DNA of 64,000 nt, from positions 1,054,001 to 1,118,000 of the forward strand of contig JAHLKI010000003.1 of NCBI GenBank assembly GCA_025602905.1. Direction: 5' to 3'. Both the position numbers and the translations under genes were made by a program. Positions 7,441-39,300 of this stretch are shown in pieces (the stretch's first letter is position 1; each line of letters starts with the position of its first letter). The notes beneath the pieces were generated by a model. That model ran no database searches, had not been told where the DNA came from, and worked only from the letters and a program-made list of their open reading frames with translations. This stretch comes from Phlyctochytrium arcticum. Its lineage: Eukaryota > Chytridiomycota > Chytridiomycetes > Chytridiales > Chytridiaceae.

Positions 7441-10400
7441 TCACGGACACTCCCCCTGAAGCACGGAAGAAACACTTTGTAGGCCGATACCTCGTGCTAG
7501 TCGTTCGTGGGCATATGCTCCTAGGCTCTTGGTAAATAGGTCGGCCAGATTGTGTTCTGTGGCAACTTTCTTGACCTCAATCTCTTTGCCCAGGAGTTCA
7601 CGGAGGTAGAAGAACTTGGATATGTAATAACGAGCCCTTCCTTTCATGGAGATTTGGGGGGTAGTGGAAGTAAGTTGTGCAATACATGCTGCATTGTTTC
7701 GTAGATAACGGTTGGTGCTGATGACGAAGACAGATCTTGCACTCCCGTATTGCTTCTCATGGTTCCTGCCAGAGACCGAATATGTAGACAAGCTTCTGTC
7801 GCATCGTATAGTGCCATAACCTCCGAGTAGTTGGTAGATGCGGCAACCGTCGTTTGCTTTGTTGATCTCCAGCTAACTGCTGTTCCGTTTCGTAGGAAGA
7901 CGTATCCCGTTTGTGACTTGCCAGTATGAGGATCCGACATGAACCCAGCGTCGGCGTATCCGATGATTCCAGCTTCTTTCTGGTCATATACAGAACGATA
8001 GAGTAGGCCTGAATCAGTTGTTCCTCTAAGGTATCTCATTACTTGCCTTACACCCGTCCAATGACGTTGAGTAGGTTTCTGCGAATATCGCGCCAATAGG
8101 TTGACTGCAAATGCGATATCTGGTCGGGTTGAGTTTGCCAGAAACATAAGTGCCCCGATCGCAGAGAGATACTGGTTGTCAACTGGCAGCAAGATGTCCT
8201 TTTCGTCTTAATTGTCGTATGGGCGGAACGGATCTTGTTCCGGATCAAGGCTTCGAACAACCATCGGAGTTCGTATCGGGTCGGCCTTGTCCATACGATA
8301 GTGTGCCAGTAGACGTTGGGTATATGTGGTTTGATGGAGCATAATGCTGCCGTTCTTGAGATATTCAATCTGAATACCTAAGCAATACGTTGCTTGACCG
8401 AGATCCTTGGTGTCAAATTTGGCTTGGATAGCTGCTGCTGCTTCGTTCACTGCTTGGTCGGTTCCGACAAAAGTCAAGTCGTCGACGTAGATTGCTATGA
8501 TGACAAACTGGTTGTCCGCGAGTCGTTTGAAGAATAAACAAGGAAACAACTCGTCTTGAACGAAGCCTTTGGACACTAGGAAATCTCGAAGGTGTTTGAA
8601 CCACATACTGTAAGCCCTGCTTGCTTCAGCCCGTAAAGCGCCTGGATAAGGCGCATGCAAGAATCGGCTGGTAATGCTCTTCCTTCACCGGTCCATCCCT
8701 CTGGTACTCGGATGTAAACTTCTTTGTCGAGTGTGCCGTACAGATATGCCGTTACAATACTGTATCCATAACACGCGTGCGCACCCTGCCACGGTGATCG
8801 GCAATGAAGGCCATAAGGAAGCGATAGGACATTCCGTCCAGAACCGGTGAGGTTGTTTCGTCGTAATCAATGCCAGGCCGTTGACTAAACCCTTGCGCAA
8901 CTAGGCGAGCCTTAAATCTCACTATTTCGCCTTTGCCATTTCTCTTCAAGTCGAATACCCATCTGGCACCAACGCACTTCACACCCAAAGGAGTACGTTG
9001 TAGTGGGCCAAATACTTTTCGTTTGCGTAGGGAATCCATTTCAGACTTGATGGCAGCTTGCCATAACGGCCATTCAGCAGATGCTTTGGCTTCTTTGTAC
9101 GACGCGGGTATTTGTACCTCTTTGTCTCGCACATCCCCAAGTGTAAGCGTGGCCTGTGGCCGTAAGTCTAGCGCGGCCTGCGGCCGTTGTTCTGAGTTCT
9201 GGGGATGCGGACCTTTGTTCAGAATTGCCATAGCAGATTGAACAATCGCCTCTTCGGGGAAGCTCTCTTCCTCGCCGTCGAGGTATTCTGGCTCGTCTTC
9301 TACTCGCTGCTGGGCTTCGACGCCATCAAGTGGCGTTAACCTACCGGGAGCTACCCGGTTCGGTCCGTTGCTTAATGTTTCGACGGACTGCATATTTGCG
9401 CCAGCAGCGGTACTATCATCACTCCCCCTCGAGCCAGATGCCTTGGCCGCAGCCATCTCTGCCTTTGTGCGCCGCTTTCGTGGTTTGTTATCAGTAGTAC
9501 CGGGAGGGCGTCCCCTCTTACTGTACGTCCCGCAATGGAACCCGGATCTCGTGCTGGAACAGCGTTTGTCAAAGGTAAGACTTCAGGCTTGTTGAGTACT
9601 TGGGGAAGGACTAACGGAGCTTTTGTGACGCAATCAGTAGCGACAAAAGCATCAGGCGTTTGCCTCGCGATCTGTTGAAAATCCAGGATTTTCTGAACGG
9701 CATCATCTCTTTCTTTCGTGGGTGGATCATGATGGATGAACGTTGGCGTAGGTGATTCCATTGTAGTGAACAGACGACCAATGTCTGTACTGAGTTCCTT
9801 TTTATTAGGTGCAGTCGCGCCAAGGTGTGGGAAATGTTCATCATCGAAAATGCAATCGGCAAAGCGTGCTGTGAGCTGTGTGCCGGTTTGCGGATCCAAA
9901 TACCGCACGATTGCCGGGGAATCAAATCCCAGGTAAATGCCCAAACGTCGCTGAGGACCCATCTTGGACCGTTTGGGCTTTTCAACAGGAACGTACACGG
10001 CACAGCCGAACGTTCGCAAATGAGCAATGGTTGGGGGTCGTCCATCCTGGAGCTGTCGAGATGACATATGGGTATGGCTTGATGGACAATAGCGCAATAA
10101 ATTCGCAGCGTGTAGTACAGCGTGTCCCCAGGCGCTGGCGGGTAAGTTCGATTGTAGAAGCATAGGACGTGCTACCCATTGAACCCACTTGACTAGATTT
10201 TCTGCCGCGCCATTTTGCTCGTGCTCATATGGAGAAGAATACGTGACGGTGATGCCGGTCGCAGTGCAGTATGAAAGGAAACCCGGACTGACGAATTCAC
10301 CGGCATTGTCAAGGCGCGGAGTGCGAATGGGATGCTCCGGATGTTGAGCGCGCAGTTTGGATATAACGGTCAATAGGCGAGCGCAGGCGAGGTTCCTGGT

Positions 10401-11366
10401 GGTTAATGGAAAAACCTCGATGTATTGTCCGGTTGCATCGCCAATTACAAGGTAGTAACGGAAACTGCCGCTTGGTGGACTGATGGGACCGCAGATATCA
10501 CTGTACAACCGAGACAGGAATGTAAGCAGTGCATAACGCGTCTTCTCAGTAAATGGTTTCCGGATAAGTTTCCCTTGAGCACATGCTGCGCACACGCAGC
10601 GTTGGGCAGCTGCTTTGGTGATGCTATGGACAGATAGTGGACAATCGCAAACAGAGCTGATCACTTTTCGCATCATTCCTAGGCCATGATGACCTAGACG
10701 GGTATGCCATAGCTGGTACTGGTTCAAGATGGTTGTATTGGCAATAACGGCGTTAAGTACATGGTTTTGTGCTTCTACCACTAGGGGTCTATTCTGGGTG
10801 ATGTACAGATAGTTGCCGTTATTGATGAACTGCTCTAGGCGTTCAACCTTGCCACTGGGTAAGGTTCGCGTGACCCAAAACGAATCATTCTGCTCTTCGG
10901 CGGCCTTGTGGTCCTTGTAACCGCTGGCGATAATGGAGCGAACAGAAATGAGATTGCGTTGAGAGTCGGGACAGTATAGAGCATTCGGGTCAGAGAAGAC
11001 AGTCCCGTTAGGAAGCTTGAAGATGGCGTGTCCCCGGTAACCTTTGCCTACCCCAGCAATGGTGCTCAGATTAAAAGTGTCATTGGGGTGCAAAGTCTTG
11101 AACATCGCTCGGTCGCGGAGGACAGTATGGGTACTGCCTGGGTCATAGTACGCGACGTACTGCTCCTTGGCGGTAGAACCGGTGGTGGAGGCAGTAGCGA
11201 TGGCATCAACAGCGTTGATACTGGCTTCAAAGTCAAACGGGGCAATAGTGGGCGCAGCATCCATGAAATTAACGGTGGTATTGCCGTTATCTTTGCTGTT
11301 GTTGTCGCGGTTGCTGTTGTTGTTTCGGTTGCCGTTGCCGTTGCCTTTCGCCTCTTGGAGCTCACG
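7441..11366 (-). pseudogene. Copia Pol (protease, integrase, RT, RNase H), several frameshifts
   Basis: Protease motif YYDPGSTHTVL at about 11150 has Pro where Ser/Thr is usual (DPG for DSG). Integrase has the HHCC zinc site (LGHHGLG...CVCAACAQGK) and DDE residues in YSDICGPI, RLDNAGEF and NGAAENLVKW. A frame change near 9520 lies within a basic AT-hook-like KRGRPPG segment. RT begins WVFDLKRNGKGE, shifts near 8770, then shows IQALYGLKQAGL, shifts again near 8645 and carries the intact catalytic YVDD at about 8490. RNase H has IGYADAGF. The C-terminus HNLADLFTKSLG is the normal Copia ending at 7441. There is a stop near 8208 and a further shift near 7700. The polyprotein is therefore dead, though every domain remains. 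Confidence 0.9.
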
Positions 11367-12295
11367 CTAAGTCTTCTTCATATGGTACGGCGCACCGCAT
11401 TCCTTGGCGCGGTGCCCAGATCGACCGCAGGCAAAACATTCACTGCCGGTCTTGTTCTGGTGGCCTTTGTTGTGGTGATTACTATGATGGCCGTGATGAT
11501 GAGGTTTGTTGTGATGTTTTTTGAACTTTCCTTTGCCGTACTTCTTATTTGGTTTTCGGCCATTGACAGAATTAACTTGGACGTTGGTTGGAGGCGCAGC
11601 TACTGGATTGATACCGCGCGTCTCCTCAGCCTTGAGACGGTCTGCGTCAAGTTTCATATCTTTGCGGATGGCGTCCATTAACTTGTCGAAACTGGTGATA
11701 GTACGGTACACGTTTGATGCCATGTTGGTGGGTAAGCCCGTGAGCGTCTTGGAGATCATTGTCTGGTCGTCACAAGGTACTGTATGTTGCACGATTGCAT
11801 GCGTCGTTTCAGATTGAATATCGCTTCGGCCCAGGAGTCAATTGTTTTGTAGTTGCCAAAATGCAACTTCACCCATGCTTGCTCGACATCCTGGCGAAGT
11901 TCTTGGGCGATCTCTTCGTAACGCGTGGTCAAGGCCGTCCACAACGACTTGGAAGTAGTTTCAAACTGGAAACGTGCTTGGACTGGTTTGGCAAAGTGCA
12001 GTTGCAGGAAGAGAAGGATTTCCTGGTCAAGGGTGACGTTGTTGGGATCATTGAGGTTGAAATTCGTTTGCAATACTCGCGTTAGGCCACGAGTTCTCAG
12101 GACGCGTTCCGTGCTCTCTTTCCACTGAGTATAGTTGTGGCCATCATACTCGAGAAGCTCGTACATTGGCTTCGGAAGGCGGAAGATGTCGAACGCAGGC
12201 TTGGACAGTGCCATAGCGGGACTTGCGGAGACATTAGCCATTGCTACGTTTGTTGGTGGGGTTGGGACTGCTGGTTGCGCGCCTTCACTGGACAT
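11367..12295 (-). pseudogene. Copia Gag, frameshifted, ending in in-frame UAG
   Basis: ATG at 12295, 50 bp inside the 5' LTR. The N-terminal two thirds follow the Copia Gag pattern (ELLEYDGHNYTQWKESTERV, then the UBN2-like helical core). A frame change near 11780-11790 separates this from the second part, which carries a CCHC knuckle CFACGRSGHRAKEC at about 11395-11440 after a Lys/His-rich stretch (KKHHNKPHHHGHHSNHHNK). The frame stops at TAG (11367-11369), but the same frame continues without a shift into protease. The stop could be a readthrough signal or simple decay of CAG; the nearby frameshift favours decay. Confidence 0.85.
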
Positions 12296-12348
12296 GGACT
12301 TTTGCTCCGGTTGGATTGCTCAACGGAGAAAACTGAGGCTACTTAACC

Positions 12349-12563
12349 TGTAGCAATTTACAAATGAATTCTTCCTCCCGGGCACGCCGGGGGACTCCTT
12401 ATATACATCTGTATCTGATCTATGCATAAACACAGTGTGTGACTATCTATAGATGCGGAACTATAGAATGAATGAGCCATTGTTTACGTGGCGTAGTAGC
12501 GACACATTCTTGGAACATGTCATTTAGACTTTCGATGGGGTGATCTGAGATCGTTCCATAACA
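12349..12563 (-). repeat. Copia 5' LTR
   Basis: 215 bp, TG...CA on the minus strand. On that strand it contains tatataaggag, a TATA-like promoter candidate (TATAAG), about 60 bp before its end. Immediately internal is ggttaagtagcctcag, where the primer-binding site should be; I could not match it to a tRNA by eye. Confidence 0.95.
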
Positions 12564-12621
12564 GGTTGAGCATAATATAATTTCTATAAATATATATGGG
12601 TAAGTCTAGTCAATTCTGATA

Positions 12622-12840
12622 CTAATTTGGTGGAGGGGGGAGTCTATGTGCGAAGCTCGCCATGAGGGCCAGGAATCTGTCCTCTCTTGCGCCTTCCTCT
12701 CGGCGTCTGGTGTCATCTCTGGCTGCCTCCTCTTGGCGTAGGACGTCATCCCTTTCCTCGTGTCTCTGTACAGTAAGTGTGAGAATTGCCATTTGGCTTT
12801 TCTCACGTCTGTGAAAAAGAACTTGAATGACGAAATGGAG
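12622..12840 (-). pseudogene. Harbinger Myb-like protein, C-terminal fragment
   Basis: Reading toward 12622 the frame gives an Arg/Glu heptad-like stretch (RHEERDDVLRQEEAARDDTR) and ends FLALMASFAHRLPPPPN before a TAG at 12622-12624. A charged coiled coil at the C-terminus is typical of the Myb/trihelix partner of Harbinger transposases, which helps nuclear import and end binding. The N-terminal Myb domain is missing: the sequence runs into the DUF6729 gene near 12880. A short open stretch only, so the assignment leans on position and the convergent layout. Confidence 0.5.
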
Positions 12841-12879
12841 AAGCTAAACAAAAACGGAGGATCCTATCCTAACTTCATC

Positions 12880-15800
12880 ACGCAGAGCGATTGTTGGATC
12901 CGCCATCCAGCAGTTCAAAACATCTTCCGGGGCCAGCATCATTTGGACCCTATGGAGCTGGCTTAACCAGATGTCTACATACATGTGCCGCACTTGTACG
13001 CCAACATAAGATGTCATTGCGGCCACGACCTGACTACGAAGGGATGGAATGACGACTTTCGGAGAGTAGTGGATCTAGATCGAACATGGTACCTGCTTTC
13101 GCGACGCTACCGCTGCGACAAGCGCGGGAAAAAGTCTGGATGTGGGAAAAGTTTCGTTGGGCATGGTCCATTCATTCTTGACCAATTGCCCGAAAGCTCG
13201 CACATGTCCTTTCCAGCCGTCCTCACCTAACGAATGGGTATCTCGTCGCTGTTGATGAATCAGATGCGGCCCCTTTTCCACCACAGAACAGGGCCGTCGC
13301 CTACAGCCAACCTCCTCCGAGAACTCCATACTAAGCAGTACGATATTTGACGGTTTGCCTATTTGGAAGAAGTTCGTCATCGAGTTACCTACCCGCCGCC
13401 CTTTGACGCTCAGACAATCTTCCCCCCTTTCCCGGAGTTTGTTAAAGAGTATGAAGAGAAGCTTCCTCTTTCGAACTACCTGTTAGCTGTCTACAATACG
13501 GCGCAAAGGCGGTTCCAGAAACCACGTGATCAACAGATTGCTATGCTCCCAGCGGACGTTCTTTCCAGCGATTTCAGTCACAAACTTCCGAAACGTGTTG
13601 CACGCATTGACGGGTGCCCTGTGTATACGGCCGTCCACTCTTTTGGTAATCAATTTGGAGAGATCCGCGGGCACACGCTCACATTCACGAAAAGACTGAG
13701 GGAAATACAGTAGATCAGCCGATCAAAGGGATGTTGAATTCGTTGAAGCAGTTTGGTCATAAGCAACCACAACTCTTGTTAGTTGACGACGTGCCGGGTA
13801 AAGTTTTTTGTGCTTCTCTTTCTGCCCATCATGCATTTTCTAATCGCTGGATTGATCAATAGGAGAACGAGGGTATTTCGAGAAGGCCATTCCATCCTTA
13901 ACTCAAGATGTCAGGGCGACTATTATCGATGAATTTGCCAATCTTCCTGAGTTTTCACGTCCTCCAAACGTGGAGCAATTTCTGATCACTACCTCGACTG
14001 CCTGCGATTTTATGCTCAATGTATGGGTCTTGCGAAACCTGAACGCCGGGGGTGAAGAGACAGGTGAAGAGACAGGTGAAGAGACAGGTGAAGAGACAGG
14101 TGAAGAGACAGGTGAAGAGACAGGTGAAGAGACAGGGGACGAGACAGGTGCAGAAATAGGTGCAGAGACGATTGCAGTTGGATTTGACTGCGAGTGGTCA
14201 TATGATCCCCGTACAGGTGTACAGGGTAAAGTCGCCACCATACAAATTGCGACCAGTGAAGTTGTCTTGATTGTTCACCTCTCTCGTATCGGAACGATCC
14301 CCTCAAGCATGAAGCGATTGATTGCGGAAGCGCGTGTCATCAAAGTAGGCAAAAATCTCGGTACTGACTTGGCAAAACTGGAAAGGGACTATGGCTTGCC
14401 TGTAAACCGTGGAACGTTGGAACTTGGTGCCTTTTGTGAACGTTTGAATGTAGTTTCGGATGGAAGGGTCGGCCTAGACATACTTTGCGCAACGGCTCTG
14501 CATCAAAGACTCCGCAAGCCAGATCCATTCGAATAAGTGAGGATTGGGACAATGAGAAACTGTCCGAACAGCAACTAACGTACGCCGCGAACGACGCGTA
14601 TGCCAGTCTAATGATCTATACCAACGTGGTGAATTTGCCCAACATAAATGCGCAGCAGCTTCGTCCGGGCCTAGCTGTTGATATTGTGGCCAAGTACAAC
14701 AAGAAGATGGTCTTCGCAACTGGAATCGTGGGACCTGCCGATGTCACAAGATTACATGGAGTAAACTTAACCAAGACCCGCCAGGCTGTCAAGATCCATC
14801 AAATTTTTGTTCCAGCTGCCTTCATACCCCAATGTAAAGGTAAGCATGAGCCGTCTGCAATTAATGTTAGCGCGCGACATTGAAGTACGTTTCGTCCATT
14901 TAGAAATTGCCTATGGTGAGCTTGACCTGCCATCACGTACTGTCGTACCGACTACACAACTACGAGTCGCTGCGTCCCGCCCCATTGAGATCGTCCCTCC
15001 AACAAACATACGGGACCCGAGCGCTACCATAACCGTGAATGCCGACAGCCAGCCGTCTTCTTTCGTTGAAGATAGCCTTGAAGATGCGTCAGCGGAAAAT
15101 GTTTCGGGGATGACGAACTTGTCCGACCTACTTATGGGGGACGAGCAGTCGGAAACAGTTGAGCACCACGATGAAGGCAATCCGTTGGAAGACGTTGTTC
15201 TTGACGCAACTATTCTAGAAGCTGCCACCCAGATGCTGAGCGGGATGGAGACTGCTTCTGAACAATCGACACTCCCAACAAGAGTGCTCATGGATCCCTT
15301 CCATTTGATGAAAAGGATAGTCATTCCCGGACGGCACGGAATTTTAACGAGATTCATTCGAGCTTTGAGGGATGCAATGTTTGTGGTTGACGAAGATGAC
15401 AAGCGTCATATGATAAGAGTTTATCTCGAACCACGGAATCAAACGTGGGAACAGGTTCTGATCCAAAAACCTGCCTGGGTCAGGAAACGCGTCCGGCGGT
15501 ACATTCCAAAGCCGGAAGTACTACTCCCACTAGTTAGGAAAGTGTTCTTGGCCTACGGTCTCATTCTCTGCAAAAAGCTGAAAAAGCCATTGTTCAACAT
15601 GGAGGCATGGAAGAAGGCGAAGCTTGTCATCCGTGAAATCTTCCTTGGTCATGTCTCCGACCCCGTTAACGTACCACTTTATTACAAAATGAAAATTGAC
15701 AAGTTTTTTCTGACAAAGTATAGATGCATCCAAGGGACAAACCTTTTGTAGGGCGGGGTTCATCAGTAAATAATTGCACGGTTCTCCGCATATCGGCCAA

Positions 15801-16290
15801 GTGTGCCATTTACGCATAGCCTATTGGCAGAATACGTTTGTAGACCCGATCAGAATGGAAGTCTCTCATTGGGGGTCCACCTCTACCAATCTCTTTACCA
15901 CACTAAACGCGACGCTTTCAGGTGGGAACTTTGAACAGATCGGGCAAGCCATGGAAGTGGCACTACAACCTGTGGCTGATTGATTCGATACATTCCCTTT
16001 ACCTGGAGTTGGAACATGTTCTGAAATTGCCCTGGCCACCACTTCTTGAGAATTGGTGTAATCCAAACTACTACAAGCAAAGTCAAGAAACCTTCCTCAT
16101 TTGTCCGCTAGGAACAAAGATGGCTGAAGTTCACCAGATAGAACGTTTCCGTGAGCCAGAGTCAAACTTTTTCCGTCGATCTGAAGTGGCCCACCGGCAA
16201 AACTCTTGTTTTGCAATTTTTCCCTTTAGCACTAGAGAGGAAAAGAGGCGGTTCCTTGAATTCCTCAAGGAACGGCGCTTACCATGCTGA
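12880..16290 (+). pseudogene. DUF6729 / DDE-like protein with embedded WRN-type 3'-5' exonuclease
   Basis: Decayed large gene. Order: an N-terminal zinc region typical of DUF6729 (CWIRHPAVQNIF at about 12893, DVYIHVPHLY, RCHCGHDLTTKGW, RRYRCDKR...GCGKSF, SFPAVLT); a nuclease-like core with DFSHKLPKRVARIDG (about 13570) and VDDVPGERG (about 13785, across an intron at 13798-13862, 65 bp); a (GEET)n repeat; a DEDDy exonuclease with DCEWSYD (about 14188), VGKNLGTDLAK (about 14350) and YAANDAYASLMIY (about 14580); then RVLMDPFHLMKRI (about 15280), RRYIPKP, LYRCIQGTN-like and HYNLWLID (about 15960). Breaks: in-frame stops at 12964, 13228, about 13350 and others, and frameshifts near 13712, 14535, 14840 and 15750. 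Function in fungi is unknown; the family is dispersed and transposon-like. Confidence 0.8.
14051..14170 (+). repeat. 12-bp minisatellite encoding (GEET)n
   Basis: Ten consecutive 12-bp units: seven exact ggtgaagagaca copies, then three diverged ones, giving GEET x7, GDET, GAEI, GAET. It lies in frame just before the exonuclease catalytic motif DCEW, so it would be an acidic linker. Likely expanded by slippage. Confidence 0.95.
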
Positions 16291-16299
16291 TGACCTTGC

Positions 16300-17314
16300 C
16301 ACCAACGGTAAACCCTGGACCAGAAATATCAAAAAGTCATGGATTCAGTATTTCATGACCATAAATGACTCTGTTGTTCGTGCTCAAACCGGCAAATTCA
16401 TGTGCAGCCTGGAGAAGGAGCTCTTGATTGAAAAAACAATCGCCTTTCATCTGAGAGAACTTAAGCGTGGGTTCGAGTTGGGAGAGCGGGACAACAACCT
16501 GATCGAGAATGTTGATGAGACCCGTTTTGTTATTAATCTCGATAACAAGCGAACACTGAGCAAACGTGGAGATCAAGAAGTCAAGTATGCCGATGTTGTA
16601 GAATCCGAGTCGATGACGATGATTGTTCGTGTGGTTGGCGGCCGTTACGCCCGTATTGAAACACCTATGAAAGTGTTTCAGAATGCAGCTTCAAGACATC
16701 CAACCACTGGCGTACCTGATAATGTCATTGGCGCTTGCTAAAGGAGTGAGCCCAACGGCTGGTGCAACCAAAGAGTGTTTGAGCAATGGTTTTGGAAGCC
16801 AAGAGCATACCAGCCAGATCGCCATGACCGCCAAAGGGTCGTGTATGTTGACAACTGCAGTGGCCATAACATCACCGAAACTCTGATAACAACCCTGGCC
16901 AACCACAAGACCCTCCTGAAGTACCTTCCCTCTTGCGCGACTGACAAATGCCAACCGGCCAATTTGTTCATCATATCCAAGCTCAAGGATGCTTGGACCG
17001 ACCGCTGGGAGACCAAGAGAATGCAGATGACCAGAGGCAACAAATGGAGCAACGGACCTCCAGGTCAGGGGATGGGTTCAGGAAAACTCAACAATCCTGG
17101 CAAATCGTACTTCTTGCAGTTGGCTGCCGATGTCGTGCGCGACGTCAATGCCCAACGGGACAGAAATGGCCTACCGAATGCCCGCAAGGTGATGATCACC
17201 TGCGGTATGGGCTTGAGTCTTGACAGAAGGTGGAAAGTGTCACAGCTCACTGCCAAACTTCAAGAGATTGTTTGCAAACACCCAGGGCACTTCGCTGGAG
17301 AGCCTTTTGACTAG
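16300..17314 (+). pseudogene. pogo-like DDE_1 transposase with one in-frame stop
   Basis: Strong match in pattern to a DDE_1 family known from oomycetes and fungi: QTGKFMCSLEKEL, FHLRELKRGFELG, IENVDETRFVINLDN (first Asp), GDQEVKYADVV, VYVDNCSGHN (second Asp, about 16850), NPGKSYFLQLAADVVRDVNA. The frame is open from 16151 to 17314 except one TAA at 16739, where Tyr is expected after IGAC. At the third acidic position the expected QPCD reads QPAN, so the catalytic residue itself is lost. Where the N-terminus begins is uncertain, because the frame overlaps the end of the exonuclease gene; related proteins start with a helix-turn-helix that I cannot place. No inverted repeats were found. Confidence 0.8.
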
Positions 17315-17448
17315 GTGTAACCCCCTTATCCCCTTTGCTTATGTCATATTGAAAAAACAAATGTGTTCAAACCAGAAAATAATGCATTGGGAAAATACTT
17401 TCAAGTAGTCTGAAGTGGATCCAGGGGTGGTTAGGTGAGACTAATTCT

Positions 17449-18640
17449 TTGGAAGCAAGTTCAAGACTTATTACAGAAGGAATATACTGTATCCGCCATT
17501 CGAAAAGCCCATGGAGTGCCACGGTGGTTTTTGCGCCTAAGAAAGATGGGGGAATTCGAGTGTGTATGGATTACAGAGGTTTGAATCCGTTACCAAGCAA
17601 GATTGTACTCCTCTGCCCAACATTGCAGAGGTGCGGGATCGTGTATAGAATGAAGTATTTTAGTTTGGTGGATGTTCGAGATGCGTACCACCAGTTATGG
17701 ATTTGTTCAAGGGACATTGAAAAGACCGCCCTTCGTACATGCTTTGGTCATTTCGAATACATCGTTGTTCTTTTTGGTTCGACAAACACACCAGCCGCCT
17801 TTCAACATTTGATGAACAAAATTCTTGGGGACTTGTTTGACCAAGGAGTCATTTTGTACCTGGATGACATCTTGACTTCCTCAAAAACAAAGGCCAAACA
17901 TACGCGCCTGGTGGATGAAGTACTTCAACAGCTACATTTGAATAGTCTGTTTGTCAAGGAGGCGAAGTGCCAGTGGGCCAGGAATGAAGTGGGATTTTGT
18001 GGCTACATTCTGAGCAACAAGGGCCTGAAATGTTCCTCATGCAAACTTGAAGCTGTGAAACATTAACCACGTCCCTCCAATCACCGCAATTTTCAATCTT
18101 TCTTGGGACTCACAAACTACTTGATTGATTTTGTCAATCAATATGCCACAATTGTATTACCTCTGTCAAACCTTCAGTCAGTTAAAACCCCATGGCGATG
18201 GCACACAGAAGAAGAGGCGGCGTTTCAAGCAATCAAGACGGCCAACAAAAATGCCCCAATCCTGGCCACGTTTGACCCCAACAAAGAAACATATCTCTAC
18301 ACTGATGTATCCATTTTTGGTTACATTATCTTGCACAGCCTTCCGCCTTTCTCCAAAACCTGGTTGACCAGACCAGAGGGCATCCTCATCCCTCTGAATC
18401 AGGGTCCTCACAACCACTAATTGGCGGCTCGGAAATGTGGCATGTGGCACAGCCATCACAATTTTACCAATTTTATGACAAGAAGGAAGTTGAATTTCTC
18501 AACAATACGTATGAGGCTGGCATAAGGAAAAAGGTTGGGGCAATGGAGTTGATGATTGAGAACTGGAATTGTGGGATTGCACTCGAAAAGCATTGAGATC
18601 TAGTGCTCTACACAACTAAGCAATGAGTCATACCACTGCC
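17449..18640 (+). pseudogene. Ty3/gypsy Pol fragment (RT and start of RNase H)
   Basis: Reverse transcriptase motifs run in order: SPWSATVVFAPKKDGGIRVC, MDYRGLN, YFSLVDVRDAYHQ, GHFEYIVVLFGSTNTPAAFQ and the intact catalytic ILYLDDILT at about 17855. The RT thumb and RNase H start follow (FLGLTNYLIDFV, TPWRWHTEEEAAFQ, LYTDVSIFGY). A TAA at 18064 and degeneration after 18400 end it. Gag, protease, integrase and LTRs are absent, so this is an isolated fragment. RNase H traces continue in shifted frames to about 18640. Confidence 0.85.
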
Positions 18641-28404: not shown

Positions 28405-31400
28405 GTGGAGACACCTGAGGAATATGCCAAACGGGTCTCTGGCTTAATTTGCTACAAATGTGATAAGAAAGGTCATATAGCCACCAAGTGTCCTGGGGGG
28501 GCCCGGGTGAACGCAACCCTTGGCCATGTGCCGGGACTTGACAAGGGAGAGTCTAATGTGCCTGTAGGAAACCCAACTGTAGATGCTGCGGTTAGTCCAC
28601 AGCGGGGGAACGTAGACTCCCCAGGTCCCCGTTTTGTTCAAGGTGGTCGTACCTACGCGGATGCAGTTACGGCTTGGCAGGTCGGGCGCCGTGGGGTCAA
28701 GCAAGAAAGGGCTTGTCCATCTATGATTCAGGAGAAGGAGAGCAGCAAAGGACCATGCTTGCCACCTACTCCGTTGCTGGCGGGTTCGACGCAGAACTCG
28801 GCCAGTAGTTTGATGATTCCGGCGAGTGCCTCCGTCGCGATCACAAAGAAGAAGTCGAAAAGTACACTGCGAGATAGGCAACCGCAGGTTGACGACAAGA
28901 AATCAAAGGACTCCCTCCCGGGCGGCTCGCAACAGATCGTTGCGGATTGGAAGGAGGTAGTAGGTAGCCCGAGCTCGATTGGGAAGGTCTATTCCATCGT
29001 AGCGAGAGTGGGCGGTTATGATGCCGTACTCCTGGAGGATCCGGGCGCTAATGTGCAAATGTTGGATACTCGATTTGTAATGCTTCACCGCTTTTGTCGG
29101 ATTGACCACAGTCAGCATTGGAAAATTGCCACCGGATTCAAGGGGTCGTACGGAACGTCAGCCGCGGGAACGGTGCAAAAGGTTGAGGTCAACGCTCGGG
29201 TGGATCGCGTATACATTGAAGTCGGCGCCGTCGATGGCTTTGACGGCATTTTGGGTACGGAGTGGTTGGAGGCCGTTGGAGCACAGCAGTGTTGGACCAC
29301 GGACAAATTAGTACTCGGTGGACATATTGTGGGTGGCGAAGAAGTCCCATGCGCGCAGAAGCATACCAAGGTTCGGGTTATAACTGCTACTGTTGCCGCT
29401 GACTCCTTCGCTACTCCCGAAACCCCTTCTATTGACCCCGAGCGCACGATTACCATTTCCGAGAATGGCCCAGCTATGTTTCCTGCTTGGGCGTCGGCCC
29501 TGGAGGAGTTGAAAGCACCGGGCGCGGCTCTCACTATGGAAGAAGCCGGTAATGTTGTGCAAAAATTCGGGGAGGAGATTGGGGTAATTTGTCCTGATGG
29601 CAAACTGGCCCCTGGACTTCCTCCGCTCCGGACTGGCATGAACCATACTTTTGTTATGAAACGTGACGCGCCGCCTCTGCCCAAGCGGGCTATTCGTTAT
29701 CCTGTGAAGTACGAGCAGCAAATGCGGGAAAAGGAGGCCAAATACATCAGCGATGGCAGGTGGTACAGGTCGTCGGACCCTGAGGATGTTCCCACGTTTG
29801 TAGTCCCAAAGAGGGACATCGCTAAGGCGCGCATGGTCTTTGATGAGCGGGCACAAAATCAACAAAAGGAGTTGGTATGATATACCCTTCCCCATACCGA
29901 TGGCATTCGTGACGCTGTACAAGAGGCCGACTTTGCCAGCCAGTTTGATCTGATAAACGCCTATGAACAATTCCGGGTGGAACCTGAATGCGAGAAATAT
30001 ACGGCATTTCTAATGCCCTCCGGTCAGTTTCGTTCCCGGGTACTATTGATGGGGGATACAAATGGCGTAGCAAATTTTCAGCGTGCTTCCAAGGTCACGG
30101 CTGGGCCGAAGCTAGGCCGAAGTATCCGTGCATACTTAGAGAATTTCGTTGTTACCACCAAGTGGAGTCTTTTCGAACATGCCTCGGAATGCCTTTGGCT
30201 ATTAGCGCGTTTCCAAGAGTGTGAGTGGTGTATTGGCACCTACGAATTTTGTCCCCCCAAAATGGAGGTTCTTGGGAGTCTCATCAGACAGGGAGTTCGT
30301 CTTCCTGGATCCAAGGTCCCGCATACGATACTGGAAGTTCCCACCTCTACCTCAATTGACCAAGTTGACCGATTTCTGGGCGCGTTTCAGTTTGTGGCTG
30401 AACAATCGTTGGATTCCGTTGCTGAGCGCTCTTTACTGGCAAATGTGGTCAAGCATCGTAAGGTGAAAGGCCGGAAGTCTGCTGCTTGGCCGCCCCCTTC
30501 TAACAACAATGGTCGCTTCATTTGGACACCCACCCATCAAGCTGCATGGGACCGGATGAAGAATGAGATGTCGCGCTCTATGGAGCTACGCAGCTTCGAT
30601 GTCAATGATCCATCTCTCCGTACATATCTGATCACGGATGCCAGCATCGTTGGAATAGCGGGCTACTTGGCACAGGGTCCGATTGCCGGAACTTGGAAGG
30701 ACGCTTGGCCTATCTGTTGTTGGTCTCGTTCGTACGTGGCTGGAGAGCGCAATTTCACCACCACGCAGCAAGAGAAATTAGCGGTGGTGGAGTCTCTATC
30801 CCATTATGAGCACTTCTTGCGCGGCGTCAGTTTTACCATCTGTACAGACCATGAGGATTTGATTTCCCAGGGGCTTGGCACCTCTGCGCCTCTAAGTGAC
30901 CGACAACACGCCCGCTGGAGCCTATATCTTTCCTCATTTGCGCCGACCTGGCAAAATATTGCCGGTGACGATAATGTCCTGGCGGACACCCTTTCAAGAT
31001 GATGGGATGACCGCCGTGTTGCCAATAAAAGCGCTGCATTGTCCGGAGATGCTGACAATGGAGCGGTTTGGCGTTGGAATGCGGTCTCTGGAGCTGATGA
31101 GAAAGACATCACCGCGATTTCTGATGGCGCACGGGTCATAGCGTGCTCTGCGGATTCTGGTTCCCTCGAGCATACCAATCCCACCCTTCGTGAGAGGCTA
31201 GTTATGGTTTTTGGGGAGGGATCCGATACTGCCTTAGTCAAACAGCTTCAAGAAGATTCTCGCTGGGGAGCGGTATGGGCCGAACCTGCTTTGCATGTGG
31301 GATTTTCGGTACTTGATGGTTTTCTTATGCTCAACGAAAAGCGTCTGGTGATTCCTTCCATGACCTGGGCAGTCGTCGACTTACGGGACCTCTTGCTTGA

Positions 31401-31500
31401 AATGGCCCATTTGGAGCTGGTGCACGTTGGTGCCGATCGGACCTACGCCCATTTGCGAGATAAATATTACTGGAAGGGGATGCTGAACGATGTCACTACC
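28405..31500 (+). pseudogene. Gypsy Pol part 1: zinc knuckle, protease, RT, RNase H, integrase N-terminus
   Basis: One frame from 28405 to 31500, broken by TGA at 29878 and 31000. CCHC knuckle CYKCDKKGHIATKC at about 28450. Protease AVLLEDPGANVQMLD has Pro in the active-site triplet (DPG). RT starts MNHTFVMKRDAPPLPKRAI, has the first Asp in FASQFDLINAYEQF, but the catalytic YxDD box reads RAYLENFVV, so both Asp are replaced. RNase H shows YLITDASIVGIAGYLAQG, WCWSRSYVAGERN-type sequence and FTICTDHEDL. Integrase begins HVGADRTYAHLRDKYYW and ends at NDVTT, where the 6.58-kb insertion cuts it. The lost YxDD means this copy cannot copy itself. Confidence 0.88.
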
Positions 31501-31529
31501 TGAGCTGGGTCAGATATATGGGGTCGGCG

Positions 31530-31564
31530 GAGCCGGCCGGCAGGATGGGCGGGCCGGCCGGCTC
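31530..31564. repeat. 12-bp inverted repeat near left end of new element
   Basis: gagccggccggc at 31530-31541 and gccggccggctc at 31553-31564 form a strong stem 30 bp from the left border. A second, imperfect hairpin built on cccaatatttcac lies at 31659-31691. The first 120 bp are very GC-rich, unlike the AT-rich sequence after them. Confidence 0.8.
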
Positions 31565-31699
31565 CGGCCGACAGCCGGAGGATGCCGGATATTTAGCGCC
31601 GCAGGCCGACCCGAGCAATCCGGAGCAATGCTTGACATTTGCCCACTATAAAAACCATCCCAATATTTCACTTTTTTGTGAAAATATTGGGAACAAAAT

Positions 31700-33668
31700 G
31701 GGAATAAATCAGCACAATTATCGCCGGGAAAGCGCTAATCAAAAGACTGGATGGAACAAAAAGGAATCTGTTAAATGCACCTTGTTTTGTAGCCCTCATC
31801 CTCTACCTCATCCTTTCTTTTCATTGTATGTGCAAGTACTTTTTATGAAAAGTAGTGCCTTGTTACCTAGCTTTGAGTATCGTTCATGGCTTTACCTGAA
31901 TGTTGGTTGCCTGTATCGAATTTGGGCCAGTCCCGCTTGTTGTTGTGCTTCCTCTTGCCCAATCTGAAAACGTCATAAAAAAGCTTAACAAGGGAGATAA
32001 CGGGACAAATCGAGCAAGCAAGACCAAGCAGAAAATTGCGGCATTGCATGCGGTTCCATGCTTTCACGACCATTCTTTCTGCTTTATTGCTTGGCATGCA
32101 ATCAATCCTGTGGATTCCCCTTTTCCTCCTTAATGTTTGCTTGCTTTCCTTCCCCTGCTACCTTTCCTGCCTGGATTTGTCCTGTACTTTTTAACTTGTT
32201 TTGCTGTCCACATGTTATTTCTTGCTGTCTTTCACTTTGCTTTATTCACTTCCACCATCTAATTTTATATTATGTTTGCTTTCATCTTTCCTCTCTCTTA
32301 CTCTTCACTTACGACACGACACGTCATTGAGTACGGACTATGTATGCAACGTTTCAGCCAGAATGAAGAGATTTGAATTAAAACATTGTCTATGAATTCC
32401 GTTAAAGTTCTCAGATGATCTTACTCTTTGCATGCTGGCTTTTCTCATCTTCCTTCTTCATGCCTACAGGAAATACTTTACACTAGGCATCCGTTACATG
32501 ATTGCATTCAACGTTTCAGCCAGATTGCAAAGATTTTAAACCACAATGCCTATGAATAAAGTTTACTTTTCAGAAATCTTACTCTGCTAATTTGAGGTTG
32601 TCAACCCGTGCAACAGACCTCATTCCACCTCTCATGTTGAGATTGTTTCCATCGTGTCTTTGTCTCGATTTGTGCTTCTTTCTACGCATGTTACATATCA
32701 TATTTTTTTAGTTCACCGTTATTTTTTATCGTTGTGATTGTTGGTGTATTGTGATATTATTTGTGGTATCCATGAAGGATATCCAGCGGCGAAAAAAACA
32801 GAGAATATGCCCTTAACAAAAATTGATTGCGGGACCTGTCTGCAAAAAAACCGCGCACATCAAGACCGTCAAGCTAACGCGGCATTCAACAACTTCCCAA
32901 ACTGTCTGACTTATGCATGTAGGTCTCACTTAGAACATGTCATCCTTGATGGACCACCTACTGGATGCCGTCTTTTGCATGCCGGCTGTCTTTATCTTCC
33001 TTCTTAATTACTCTACGGGAAACGCCTAGGACATGAAATCCATCACCGACCCTAAGTGCATGGATACAATGCAAGTTTTTAGTCAATTGACCACTCTAAA
33101 ACATTTCCCTCCCTACTTGATGCATATATTCACAACTCTGCCCTACTATTTCTTTTCCAACTCCTCATCCGTTTTCTTTCTTGTACCATTTCTTCATAGG
33201 GAGGCAGCGCCGCCCACATAAAAGCATTGTAACAAATGCCTTTATGATAGGCTGTTCAGACAACGATGACATTTTCTTAAATAATGGTAATAGACGTTGT
33301 TTCGAAATTATTTTAGCATCCCCAAAGGATAATTTCTGCTTCTTTTGAAATGGTCTCGATGCTGACTCTGCCTTAATACGTAGTTTCATCAACTCGGTCG
33401 ATGAGGAAGGCGTACATTTAAAACTGTTCATGCTTTTCAAATCTTGCAAAAGCGCCTATTTGACAAAAGGACAGCGTGCATTCAACTGCTCTCGAAAAAA
33501 AACACTAATGTTCGAAAAGAAATCAAAGAGTATCACAAATAAATGAAAGAGAATAAATAACGCTATACTAACTACTTTAAACTAGGGATGTACGCAGGAA
33601 AAATAATAAAAAATCCAAATATCGGAACGGAAGCCTATTTGCCATCAATATTGTGACCATGTCAACTC
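31700..33668. other. Non-coding left half of new element with degenerate tandem repeat
   Basis: No gene supported. Pyrimidine-rich between 32090 and 32320. A degenerate unit of about 160 bp starting caacgtttcagccaga occurs at 32348 and 32509, each followed by tctatgaat/cctatgaat and tcttactctttgc/tcttactctgc; a weaker third piece lies near 32960. The core 14-mer caacgtttcagcca also occurs at 52247. Confidence 0.5.
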
Positions 33669-36600
33669 TTACTTACTAAAATAGGACTTGATACTCTTGT
33701 TGTCCTTAGCCGGCACATGCTTTGCGCATGTCAAGAAACTTTCATCGCATTTTTGCTTACGGCTCCTGCAGGAAGCGCATGCTGAGGTTGGCTCCTCGAC
33801 TTGGGAAGCAGTTGAAGCATCATATTTAGAACAACTTGTGTGCGAACCGTCGCATTTTCGCTTTCCGGTATAACAGGAGGGGCATGCTTTTCCGGCCTTG
33901 ACCCGTTTACGAGAACCGGATGCTTCGGAAATTTGAGGAGGCAGAGGCCGCTTGAGAGCTGACGGAGCTGATGATATAGCTGTGGTTGCGGTTGCTGTTG
34001 TCTCTGTTGGGGTTGCGGTTGTCGCAGTTGCAGTTGCTGTCGTTGCTCTTGCTGTTGCGGTCGTCGCTGGAGTTGCTGTTGCAGTTGTTATGGTAGTTGT
34101 TGCCTGAGCCGTGGACGTTGAAACTGCGGGGTTTGCAGGCCGGGTAGAGGTATCCAAAGTCTCACTAGCAAAATTGTGGTTAAGGGGATCCTCAATATTT
34201 ACTGCAGTGATTTCGGCATTAGTGTCAGGGGGTCCGTCAATGTTTGCTGCAGCAATTTCGATGTTGGGAGTAGATGATGCGTGACTAGCGGAAGCCGTGG
34301 AGCGCAAGGATAAAGGATGAGGACGGGACCAATAAATTCGCTGGACAAATGCTTTTTCTGAAACTTGCCCAAACGTGGCTGGATACAAGTGGATTGCGCG
34401 TTGGTGTAATGCCTTCAACGTTAGCATTTCATCCTTCTTCATCACCAGCAAAGTTTCAATCTCCGCAGCCTGACCCGCTTTGATCTGTTGTAATGAAGGG
34501 GAATTGGTGGTTGCGGGAAGAGGGATGTTAGGAGGAGTCACTGGTGTTGATGCGGTCGCGCGAGGAGTGGGAGAAGTGACGGTGGTTGTTGGAAGGGTTG
34601 CGAAAAGAGGGATGGTGGGAGGAGTGATGGCTTTTGAAATGCTTGCGGGAAGAGTAATGGTAAGGGGAGTGGTTTTGGGAGGAGCAGACGCGAGCGTAGT
34701 GATGGTAGAAGAGATTGGTTCTGCGTCGGAAACGAAATCAGACTCCGAGGTGAATTCTTCCTCATCCAATTGCTGAGATTGCTGAGAGGATGCACCCTGT
34801 AGCGGCTGTAGTTTCGACAAAGATCCATTGTCCAATCAGTTTTGTAAAGCTGTGGCAAATAACGTACACTGTGCCCGTACCTTCGCTTTCTTTATTTGCC
34901 TTGATCTCTGCCGTCGCAGAGCTTTCCAACGCGCGATAATATCCTCATCCGTGCGGGCTCTGAACAATGGAGTCAAGTGGGATGCCAACGATAACATCTT
35001 TACAAATCTTTTCTTTTTCTTGTCCAACTTAGAGTTGACCAGCGCGTTAAACACTTGCGTCATGAACCTTCCTTCAAATAGCAACTCCGAGTCGGCACAG
35101 TCGTCCGGGTGGTTGCTGACGTTCAGTAGTGTCAATGGACCGTGATCCAACTCACCAGATGCCGGAGTTTTGCCCTTCCGGGCTTCACGGATCCACTTTT
35201 CCTCGATGACAGGAAATGTCTTATAGCCGATTTTGAGGTTCACCGCTGCTTCCCCCAATGCATGTACGGATGCATTGTACAATATGGTCAAGACCAGGGG
35301 GCAATTTTTGATATCCGCGTCCCCCTCGCGGTCAACCGTCTCTTGTAGGCTCATCACCTTGATCAGGAGGCGACGTTCCTCTGCACTCATTTGGTCGCGG
35401 GTGATGTCGGTCAAATGGATTCCCAGGAATTCCATGAATTGGGCGGTCGTCAAGGGGGGGCGCTTGAATGAGGCTGCATGGGAGCTGGTAGGTTGGAAGA
35501 GGGATGTAATACTTTCTTGGTCCACAGGTGGCTGCTTCTGCGAGCCATTCAAGACAACATTGGAAGGGGGGTTGGCGATGGGATTATTAGCGGAGTTGGC
35601 GGTGGGATTATTGGTGGTGGTGGGGTTATTAGTGGAGTTGGCGGTGGGGTCATTGGTAAGATTGGTTGGGGGGTTGACGAGAGAATTACAGTATAACATT
35701 GCCACTCAGACCCCAGAAACACTTTGGCGTCTTCTGTGACCAGTTTGTCATCGTCATCTTCTGGCGTCAATATCCAAATATCGACCAGGAGCGGTCTCGC
35801 GAATGCCGTCTGACTGGTCTCGGGAATCATGCCTGCTGCCGATAGTGTCAACTTTATCAGGGTAAGGGCATCCATATGAAAAAGGTTGGGCCACGGGCCA
35901 AAACGATATCCTGCGTTGAAATTTTTCTGGAAAGGCCAATTAAAATGAGTAGTCCTCTGTGGATGACAACGGAAGGAATACTCACTTTGACGATATAAAA
36001 ATACATGATGCGCATACCTACATCATGACGTACGGGCCGCACCGTCAGAAATTGCAGTCCGGAGTTTGTATTCTCAACGCCACTGGTGTGGAGAAGGCGT
36101 CGTTCTTTCCCATTGAGGAAAATGACATTCGGCTTACCAGCGTTCACATAACCTTTGGTAATATGAGAGAGACAATTGGCAACCGTTTTCTGCCATTTGC
36201 GCAAAGCTTCATCGGAAAAATCGGATTTATCAAACTCGTTACAAGCGCATTGGAAGAGCTCTACGGCTTCAGGGATCTCGCGATGATTGCCGTCGGGGAG
36301 GTACAATGTCACTGAGTTTCTGGGACAATTCGGCCCGGTCCCCTTCATCCTTAACTTTTGAGGTGACTCTGGGAGAGAAGAACATCAGAACACGGTCATT
36401 GACATATCGGACGTACACGCCAGTAAATCTACCTAGTGACCAAATGGAAAGGATCCTGATTCGGTAGATATCCTGGCCCCATTTCTTCGATTACTTTTTT
36501 TGTGTTTTTGATATTATCCGTGACAACCAGTATCGGATTTTCAACTGTTCACAGCATGTTCGGTTAAGTAATATGCCATGGAGTTTCTGGGTATGTACGC

Positions 36601-37774
36601 ACCTGACGGCGCATGGCCGGCATCTGCCATATCCTTCCGAACCCGACCCAATGCCGCGGCTATTGTTTCGTGGCTTTCGCTCGCCATAAACGAAATATCC
36701 ATAATCTGCCCTATTTCGTTCTGGACAATGTTTAAAAGTTTCAATTGTTGAGGGGTAACCTTGGCGTAGGTGTTTTTCTCCTGTGCCTTCAGCTTCGCCG
36801 GGAACTTTTGGGTCGCGTCGAATGAAATTGCTTCATAAGTTACACTCTTTCTCATCACCACTTTGGCTATCTCTACAATAGGTGAGGTGACTTGCATCCA
36901 AGTGTTGATGAAGGTGGAGTCGTCTACAGGCTCATGATCCTTGGCGTACTCTTCAATTGTGCAGGCGCGCGGGCGTTGCTTCAATGGAGTTTGGCTGTAT
37001 TTGGGATCACACGCGTGTTCGATGCTGAGTAAAGTATATCTTTTCATTCTTCTTGCCCAAAGACTTCTAACAAATGGAGCTGCGCCTATGTAAAACATCA
37101 AGATGTCAGGGGTGTCTTACAGGAAGGGGAGGGGCAAGCTTGTACCTTTTGGGGACATTATTGCGTGGTGAATGTCATTGAGAGAGATTCCGAAAACCCA
37201 TGTTTGGGGGAGAGGATGTAGGGGAACTTGCTGGCTAGTCCAATTCCAACTTTCTCCATAAATTCCTTCGAAATTGTGCTAAATCGCTTGCCGAGCGTAC
37301 TGCAGGTGTAGGACGTGAAAATAATCTGAGCGTGATAGTCATGTTCTTCTACAGTAATGTCGTGGTACCCTTTAACTGGAGATGGAGATAGTCATGTAGA
37401 CATAACGTTAATCAAAGATTTTGAAAAGGAACCCGTTTGTTTACACTTCAAAAATGCACCAAGAAGTCCTAAGAGACAATCAACAACTTACCCTTAGGCT
37501 TGCAGTTGGAGGAAAGAGCACAGGGAATCTCCTTCTTCTTAAAGGCATTTTGCGGTGTCCAAATGTAAACAGGTAGATAAAAGAGTCCAAATTGATTGCG
37601 GAAGTTCAGGTTCTTCTCGGGCTTAATCGTCCTTCCAATGACTGGGTCAAAATCCTTTGACTTCTTGATCTGGTCGATAATGAGGCCGCTGATGTCGGCC
37701 TGCTGAGATAACTTCATGGTGGATACGATTACTACCAAGCGATGTTCAATACAATTGGCACAATTGGCACGCAT
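33669..37774 (-). pseudogene. Seven-exon DUF6729-related DDE-like protein with Zn-cluster-like C-terminus
   Basis: About 1,220 residues. Introns (minus): 37376-37491, 37086-37145, 36545-36602, 36369-36432, 35927-35985, 34806-34880; all GT...AG and phase-consistent. Domains: zinc region LFYLPVYIWTPQNAF, IPCALSSNC, SYTCSTLGKRFSTIS, SKFPYILSPKHGFS; nuclease-like core EAISFDATQKFPAKLKAQ (about 36810), NIVQNEIGQIMD, ILVVTDNIKNTKK (about 36520), DPFHLVTRV (about 36440), TSGVENTNSGL; middle HPDDCADSELLFEGRFMTQV; charged ARWKALRRQRSRQIKKAK; and two C-terminal CPSCYTGKRKCD / CASCRSRKQKCD motifs resembling half of a Zn2Cys6 cluster. Three frame defects: a CT expansion near 37190, and shifts near 36320 and 35700. 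Otherwise coherent, so recently active. The same motif order occurs in the 12.9-16.3 kb gene. Confidence 0.7.
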
Positions 37775-38029
37775 TGCGACTCAAGAAGGATGGATACCTG
37801 ATAGCGAGGACTTGAAATAAAGTCATCTATTGGCTGGAAAGTATTTGGACGTGAAGCAAGAGCGGTGTGTGAACTTTTCTCCAGAAGGAACACTGGGAAT
37901 GGTGGTAATGGAGAAGTGAAAATCTGACAGTCAAATTTTGACCCGGCAGATCTGGGTCGGAGTCTGCTGTTGGGCACTAATACTGCATTTATCCGTGACT
38001 TGACGCACAGTCACGCGAGAATTTTGACA

Positions 38030-38047
38030 TTTTGACAATTGTCAAAA
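38030..38047. repeat. 18-bp perfect palindrome near right end of new element
   Basis: ttttgacaattgtcaaaa, 30 bp from the right border, with an adjacent extra ttttgac unit to its left and further tgac units around it (cgtgactt, gtgacaac). Looks like a subterminal binding site. Confidence 0.85.
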
Positions 38048-38084
38048 CGTGACAACCCCACGCATTTCATTCTGCCCCACTACC

Positions 38085-39300
38085 TTTGTTCGAGAATGTG
38101 ATCGATGCCAGCGTGCAAAATCTTGTTACGTTGCGGGGCCCGGTTTAGCTATGGCGATGCCGATGGTCGGACACCTGGGGGAGCACTTGGGCATGGATTT
38201 CATTGGGCCACTCCCTCTCATTTGCGGTTATGACTCAACTTGGCATATTCAAGATCGCCTGACTGGGGAGTCCATATTTGTCCCTTGGAAGACTACGGGT
38301 ACGGCGTCGGATCTTGCCAATCTCTTCACAGAACGCGTATACCCAAGATGGGGTTTGCCTGTGGACATTTTGAGCGATCGGGACTCGAAATTTACGTTGC
38401 AATTCTGGGAAGCCATGATGGCAGCACTACCTGTAAAATTACGTCGAACTACCGCTTTCCGCCCTAATGTTGATGGGCAGGTGGAACAGCAACACCACAA
38501 TCTTAACAAAGCTATGCGGGCATTGGTGGATGGTAGTCATGAGAAATGGCTGGACGCTTTGCCACTATTGGAGTTCCGTTGTAACGCGTCGGTCTCGCGA
38601 ACGACCGGTCGGAGCCCTTTTGAACTAGCCATTGGTTTTGTACCCACAGCCCTTCCGCGATTACCGACGTCAGGTTCTAAGGATGCCGACGCATGGCTTT
38701 TGAAACTCGAGGCCTTACACAAGGATGCTGAAGAGTGTACTCGGACCGCCAAGGTAGGTCAAGTTTTGACCGCCAATGCTGGGAAACCATCACCTGTTCC
38801 ATACAAATCTGGCAATCGCGTCCTGTTGAACACAAAGAATTTGAAATTCAAATACCAGAACGTGGAGAAGCAAAGACAAGTGGACAGGACCGTTTGTAGT
38901 GACTGGACAGTCGGGACGCACCGTGCATCTGGAGCTTCCGACCCATTGGCGTCTATTCCCTAAGTTTGATGTGTCGTTGCTAAAGCCTTACGAATGTCCG
39001 GCCGATAGATTCCCAGGGTCGTTTCCCGAGCTGGACGACGAGGGACATCCCCTAGAGAGTGTAGACCACATCGTTGACCATAGGTGGAACGCGAAGAAAA
39101 ACCGGGACGAATACAGGATATTCTGCAACTGATGACACGTGGGAACCTGAGGAACACCTGAACCAAGCTGCTCTCGATGACTTTGCGGCATATCTTGACA
39201 AAACCCGACATGTTCCTGCCCCTGTTGTTTCTACCTCTCCGGAGGTTTTGTCTGCCCCTACTGCTGCTGCTGAACCAACAGCGACTCCTGATGTTGAGCC
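38085..39300 (+). pseudogene. Gypsy Pol part 2: integrase core and chromodomain
   Basis: The frame continues directly from 31500: FVRECDRCQRAKS completes the HHCC zinc site. The core has the DDE triad in GMDFIGPLP, DILSDRDSKFTLQFW and DGQVEQQHHNLNKAM, all intact. After a frame change near 38900 comes a chromodomain: HIVDHRWNAKKNRDEYRIF, then a further shift at about 39130 before DTWEPEEHLNQAALDDFAAY. Chromodomains direct chromovirus integration to marked heterochromatin. The polypurine tract and 3' LTR follow. Confidence 0.9.

Follow-up and report, generated by a model that had tools for sequence, protein, structure and literature searches.

The stretch of DNA analyzed here (hereafter the window) spans 64,000 nucleotides of the chytrid Phlyctochytrium arcticum and corresponds to positions 1054001-1118000 of contig C3 in a genome assembly of 31.5 Mb. 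It contains an element of 6,577 bp (31502-38078, transposase gene on the minus strand) that interrupts a gypsy integrase gene. This element can be assigned with good confidence to a divergent, exonuclease-less lineage of cut-and-paste DNA transposons related to the Dada superfamily. It is regarded as a DNA transposon because unlinked copies in the same genome share its ends, while displaying their own target duplications and empty sites. The novelty lies in the lineage itself, which is divergent, devoid of the exonuclease, and found in P. arcticum only, with insertions that hit a gypsy integrase as well as a Helitron and an NDC10-like gene. The original prediction of an undescribed and distinct type of transposon was not retained, as the traits of the element are those of published Dada (Kojima and Jurka 2013, PMC3706591) and profile homology was found with transposases combining DUF6729 and an exonuclease.

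Element limits, related copies, and insertion sites

The original prediction described CACTACC flanks and a split gypsy integrase. These bases do occur at 31494-31500 and 38078-38084, and the integrase frame is found on either side, with a left half on the plus strand (31003-31501) matching Integrase_H2C2 and a right part on the same strand (38085-38963) giving a weak rve match (E=0.017, below cut-off). The identity shared by the two sides is actually CACTACCT (31494-31501 and 38078-38085). The element was placed at 31502-38078, with the 7-bp target site duplication ACTACCT on the left (31495-31501, identity reaching CACTACCT from 31494) and on the right (38079-38085, identity also at 38078), because the 3' end of other copies reads ...CCCAGCTC directly before their own duplication. 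These limits lie one base to the right of those initially proposed (31501-38077). The same site is uninterrupted in five paralogous gypsy copies, two on C25 and C14 with 76-78% identity around the site, and three on C49, C16, and C1 with about 72%.

A translated genome search using the first 776 residues returned at least 82 matches (58 of 104 candidates scored). These were grouped into 27 places. Two of them (C80 and C61) duplicate other loci on near-identical contigs, and C3:967k possibly belongs with C3:974k to one interrupted copy, so that the family occupies about 25 loci. C80 was rejected as an independent copy, since it carries the window locus over 18.6 kb at 99.78% identity. Both ends could be defined in four of the 27 places, namely the window copy, C2:524115-528525 (4,411 bp), C3:840728-844992 (4,265 bp), and C14:738929-742351 (3,423 bp). 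The last three have their own duplications, GGATATG, CTCAAAA, and CACTTCC, respectively, and thereby provide what the original prediction had set as its main test, further copies with the same ends and new 7-bp duplications. With the 3' end set at CCCAGCTC, the duplicated bases number 9 in C2, 7 in C3, and 8 in both C14 and the window; a length of 7 bp was adopted since it is the value fitting all four copies (at least 7 in 4/4). Visual comparison of the four 7-mers revealed no shared motif. The C51/C27 group was kept outside this count, C51 having a clear 5' tip but a 3' tip placed by eye in a CT-rich sequence, and the C27 5' tip being seemingly truncated. Ends were not recognizable at the C9 place and not clear for C25b and C5; at C2:1315k, the 3' end is present with no 5' end. 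The family member at C25:221k is in turn split by ca. 3.9 kb of other DNA (C25:222512-226444).

The window copy taken alone, with its two apparent frameshifts and a gene-free stretch of 2.2 kb, might suggest a segmental insertion or a host gene fragment captured in a gypsy element and not mobile in its own right, the more so as C80 only repeats the same locus. This explanation, which we consider to have virtually no chance of being correct, is refuted by unlinked copies having the same end structure, different duplications, and empty sites.

In gene orientation, the 3' end of the element (31502-31522, plus strand) bears the terminal motif GAGCTGGGNNNNATNNNNGGG, which is common to the ends of other copies, and the 5' end (38049-38078, minus strand) starts with GGGGCAGAATGAAATGCGTGGGGTTG and shares a weak subterminal TGGGGT with the opposite end. 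The window copy lacks terminal inverted repeats, as stated in the original prediction, and so do the C2, C3, and C14 copies. Instead, subterminal inverted repeats of 9-10 bp were found at positions 13-14 from the tips in C2 (ATTCGCGGG, with the same letters in C3), C14 (ATATGCGGGA), and C51 (ATGGGTGGGA), and were reached by 40, 2, and 8 of 5000 shuffles, respectively. These repeats match within each copy and differ between copies, which share stretches of only 3-6 bases in their vicinity. The 5' tip of C51, GAGCTGGGGG, is identical to the 3' tips of C2 and C14 over 10 bases, and its 3' tip, as placed by eye, starts with GAGCC.

The GAGCTGGGNNNNATNNNNGGG pattern was built from five ends (C2, C14, C2:1319197, C51, and the window) and matched the genome nine times, versus none for the backwards pattern. 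Seven of these nine matches are expected by construction, since they comprise the five source ends together with C3 and C80, whose sequences there repeat those of C2 and the window, respectively. The two others are C29:278901 and C4:500260. The latter (C4:500260-500280; L069 161-189) continues with 29 bp of a C51-type end at 97%; the 5.2 kb of sequence retrieved around it contain no transposase match, and it is possibly a non-autonomous element or a relic. A 42-bp near-match to the 5' subterminal region (AAATGCGTGGGGTTG...GACAATTGTCAAAATGTCAA) that lacks the tip was also observed at C9:854068-854109 (L017).

Regarding the other insertion sites, the sequence obtained by joining both C3 flanks is uninterrupted at five loci, on C25 at 90% (bases 36-339 of 340) and on C44, C17 (twice), and C3:562927 at 76-77% (bases 1-339); three further matches are partial. 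This insertion splits a Helitron_like_N profile, of which positions 1-92 are matched in one flank and 94-159 in the opposite one. The C14 copy has one flank matching NDC10_II just below the cut-off (24.8 vs 26.3 bits) and another with no match, and its target sequence has no other occurrence in the genome. The C2 target corresponds to no Pfam-recognized gene, and only part of one flank recurs elsewhere. Three of the four defined sites are thus within or beside genes of the mobile-element type, but no target preference can be claimed because the sites are too few and the genome is rich in such genes. Rfam searches at gathering score detected no small RNA gene, either in the window or at five loci carrying the C2, C3, and C14 copies, although such searches may overlook a gene that the insertion has divided.

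Transposase gene and protein motifs

The single, clean seven-exon gene of the original prediction was replaced by a nine-exon model on the minus strand (33669-37717; exons 37717-37492, 37375-37301, 37265-37146, 37085-36603, 36544-36433, 36349-35986, 35926-35690, 35537-34881, and 34805-33669) with two apparent frameshifts. The model agrees over its first four exons with P0006 (DFS34DRAFT_668665), the annotated start of this gene. Comparison with the relative P0001 revealed frame changes near 37182 and 36316 for which no intron could be found to account. Because of these two apparent frameshifts, the window copy is probably dead, unless they are assembly errors. The 2 kb of non-coding DNA reported earlier was recovered downstream of the gene, as a stretch of about 2.17 kb (31502-33668) with no recognizable gene. 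Since its counterpart in the C2 copy is only ca. 315 bp long, this stretch may be extra DNA acquired by the window copy. Parts of it (31883-32338 and 32986-33069) resemble sequences on C34 (241082-241306 and around 237732) and C14 (665836-665954).

A DNA transposon with DDE-type motifs (FDATQK, VVTDN, and DPFHL), as read in the original prediction, is supported. In the window, the first catalytic Asp (AISFDATQKF) is found with VQNEIGQIMD in the region 36595-37182, the second (LVVTDN) with the DxxH motif (QDPFHL) at 36432-36548, and the putative catalytic Glu (HTSGVENTN) in the region 35986-36315, all on the minus strand. Second Asp and DxxH are about 20 residues apart in the family. When fetched copies were translated and aligned, the first Asp was present in 18/18 rows, TD[NH] in 11/16, DPxH in 13/16, and the Glu, assigned by motif only, in 16/18, counting those rows that cover each site and including the second contig C61. 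TD[NH] is missing from C25:219975; TD[NH] and DPxH from C2:1262997 and C3:1304500; and TD[NH], DPxH, and Glu from C25:365000. C61 reads VVCD before a stop and C51:42518 is devoid of the Glu. Rows without catalytic motifs mostly look like broken alignments.

The zinc-binding N-terminus previously suggested corresponds in the relatives to CPLCxxC plus YTC, with no clear fourth ligand at the spacing quoted for Dada, and is incomplete in the window copy, where the second Cys is absent (PCALSSNC vs, e.g., PCPLCPGC). The two Zn-cluster-like motifs are present as cysteine motifs (CPSC..CDG..C and CASC..CDE..C; 33669-33900, minus strand), but their Zn_clus match is below the cut-off (E=0.0022, 18.5 bits for a cut-off of 21). 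The C-terminus of family proteins has one or two motifs of the CxxC-x6-C-x6-C type, a spacing that is not the CCHC quoted for Dada.

Pfam detected no exonuclease in the family proteins. A search of PDB sequences with P0001 produced two chance-level matches (E=0.3 and 0.73), and viral contigs searched with alignment A2 yielded 152 pattern stretches, none of which was confirmed. All relatives found in a set of 5.8 billion proteins (four in one search and six in another) are from P. arcticum, these searches reaching only relatives that share exact 5-residue words and the second one scoring the best 8000 candidates.

Probable relationship to the Dada superfamily

Dada elements generate 6-7-bp duplications, have short subterminal but no terminal inverted repeats, and encode a DDE transposase with DxxH, an N-terminal CCCC and a C-terminal CCHC zinc motif, from genes that are spliced in all but the Perkinsus elements (PMC3706591). 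The lack of inverted repeats together with a 7-bp duplication, which the original prediction found odd, is so for transposons in general but is a signature of Dada. The P. arcticum family shares with Dada the duplication length, the subterminal repeats in place of terminal ones (9 bp being quoted for Dada-U6), a spliced gene, a DDE domain with DxxH, and, more tentatively, zinc-type motifs at both termini, and the window copy falls within the quoted size range of 4,666-10,979 bp. In contrast, the C2, C3, and C14 copies are shorter, the zinc spacing is not as quoted, and the family is inserted into a gypsy integrase, genes of the Helitron type and NDC10-like, and one unassigned sequence, instead of the small nuclear RNA (snRNA), transfer RNA (tRNA), and 5S genes usual for Dada. 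In the titles and abstracts of the open-licence literature, we found no account of Dada in a chytrid or of P. arcticum transposons.

Laccaria and Ectocarpus Dada harbor a DEDDy exonuclease that separates the second Asp from DxxH (PMC3706591). Searching the P. arcticum genome with DUF6729 produced 13 matches at E up to 1, 12 of them over the cut-off, including one in the window (13006-13497). The copy on C29 displays the order DUF6729, exonuclease, DPFHL, as described in PMC3706591. When used as a query, it retrieved 11 proteins, ten of which (P0007-P0016) combine DUF6729 and DNA_pol_A_exo1, including seven from Zychaea, Circinella, Panaeolus, Agaricus, and Mycena; P0017, a Werner helicase, was dropped from this set. 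The name DUF6729 was not found in the open-licence literature. We infer that these proteins are probably fungal Dada, since they fit the description in PMC3706591 and 15 Dada families are listed in the Agaricus bisporus genome paper for the same strains. The P. arcticum family has a homologous zinc region, first and second Asp, and DxxH, but no exonuclease between the last two, and both types coexist in this genome. Profile comparison with hhalign aligned the family with the DUF6729-exonuclease group over 277 columns spanning the zinc region and both Asp (E=3.4e-10, probability 96.7). Taken separately, the N-terminal segment matched at E=2.8e-10, versus 0.37 and 0.45 with reversed profiles, and the C-terminal segment around DxxH at E=1.7e-4 over 39 columns (probability 49.6), versus 0.18 and 0.21. 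In a joint alignment of 14 sequences (A4), which aligns the two families well up to the second Asp, there is hardly any variation at the first Asp, at the Lys located four positions after it, and at an Asn. A Glu that also appeared nearly invariant was not used, as the exonuclease was aligned with the C-terminal part of the family after the second Asp.

Several observations weigh against placing this family close to Dada as a cut-and-paste transposon. Its link to Dada is indirect, via the DUF6729-exonuclease proteins as a presumed stand-in for authentic Repbase Dada; the family profile is shallow (Neff 1.6) and reversed profiles are a lenient control; the match over DxxH is short, and the Glu lies outside every profile match. 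No Pfam family scored above cut-off in the window exons or the six relatives. The structure prediction suggested as a check for an RNase H fold was performed with AlphaFold2 on P0001 and a six-sequence alignment, and with a mean predicted local distance difference test (pLDDT) of 36.5 says nothing about the fold. At the DNA level, the subterminal repeat of the window copy is limited to the 6 bp TGGGGT and is not significant (481/5000 shuffles), the two C51 tips share GAGC, a possible vestige of a terminal repeat in this group, and the duplication is strictly 7 bp in C3 only. Finally, no small RNA gene was recognized at the four defined sites.

An alternative that we regard as rather unlikely is that the lineage falls outside the known diversity of Dada. 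It would be consistent with relatives confined to P. arcticum among 5.8 billion proteins, with the absence of Pfam matches above cut-off, of an exonuclease, and of a recognized RNA-gene target, and with a zinc spacing unlike that quoted. However, protein searches of this kind would overlook relatives without shared words, the profile homology to exonuclease-type transposases extends over the zinc region and both Asp, and the agreement with Dada concerns the duplication length, missing terminal repeats, subterminal repeats, introns, and DxxH at once. An affiliation to another superfamily with a DxxH-type transposase (MULE, hAT, P, Kolobok, or ISL3-like) is far less plausible. C/DxxH and 4-10 bp duplications are likewise described for hAT, Kolobok, P, and MuDR (PMC3706591), and P0003 shows a weak likeness to DDE_Tnp_ISL3 (PF01610) around the second Asp and DxFH, below the curated cut-off (E=0.0065, 16.7 vs 23 bits). 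Yet the six relatives gave no MULE, hAT, or P match in Pfam at E up to 10, the four defined copies are devoid of terminal inverted repeats, and profile comparison matched the family with the DUF6729-exonuclease group.

As a Dada-related cut-and-paste transposon, the element would be mobilized by a transposase produced from its spliced minus-strand gene, which would bind both ends via the short subterminal inverted repeats about 12 bp from each tip, presumably through its zinc-type N-terminal part. The element would then be cut out by the DDE (RNase H-like) active site carrying DxxH and joined to a target site cut 7 bp apart on the two strands, and gap repair by the host would generate the 7-bp duplication. 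The RNase H fold, catalysis, DNA binding, and excision are all predicted.

Exonuclease-bearing relatives and target choice

The window also contains a decayed exonuclease-bearing DUF6729 element of the Dada type (12774-16275, plus strand), which is 95.6% identical to the C29 copy (L068 988-4445), with DUF6729 at 13006-13497, an exonuclease match in 13856-14536, and DPFHLMKRI near 15291. Four DUF6729 matches in the genome (C44:37325, C8:553142, C29:194016, and C11:337937) have nearly equal scores and the same open-frame length, which suggests a recently active family of the exonuclease type. The surrounding region (9372-18420) comprises a minus-strand copia-like polyprotein, a Tc1/mariner-like open reading frame, and gypsy reverse-transcriptase pieces, all named by eye.

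Dada are known for their insertion in snRNA, tRNA, and 5S genes. In the 2013 description, every family whose ends could be clearly defined targets multicopy small RNA genes (PMC3706591). A more recent account refers to 'many' Dada in RNA genes and mentions one copy in a hAT element (Kojima 2022, PMC8869645), and the missing RNA-gene target was for this reason treated as a variant feature and not as an exclusion. One speculative scenario, to which we assign a low probability, is that the chytrid Dada-like lineage swapped the niche of small RNA genes for conserved codons in genes of other mobile elements (gypsy integrase, Helitron helicase-type, and Crypton/NDC10-like), using transposons as a multicopy safe harbor.

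For the question of how the Dada transposase came to recognize sites in small RNA genes, the P. arcticum family, with its defined ends, jointly changing subterminal repeats, and unrelated targets, lends itself to comparisons on the ancestral or acquired nature of target specificity and on the protein region that confers it. The occurrence of exonuclease-bearing and exonuclease-less types in one genome makes the two comparable within a single host.

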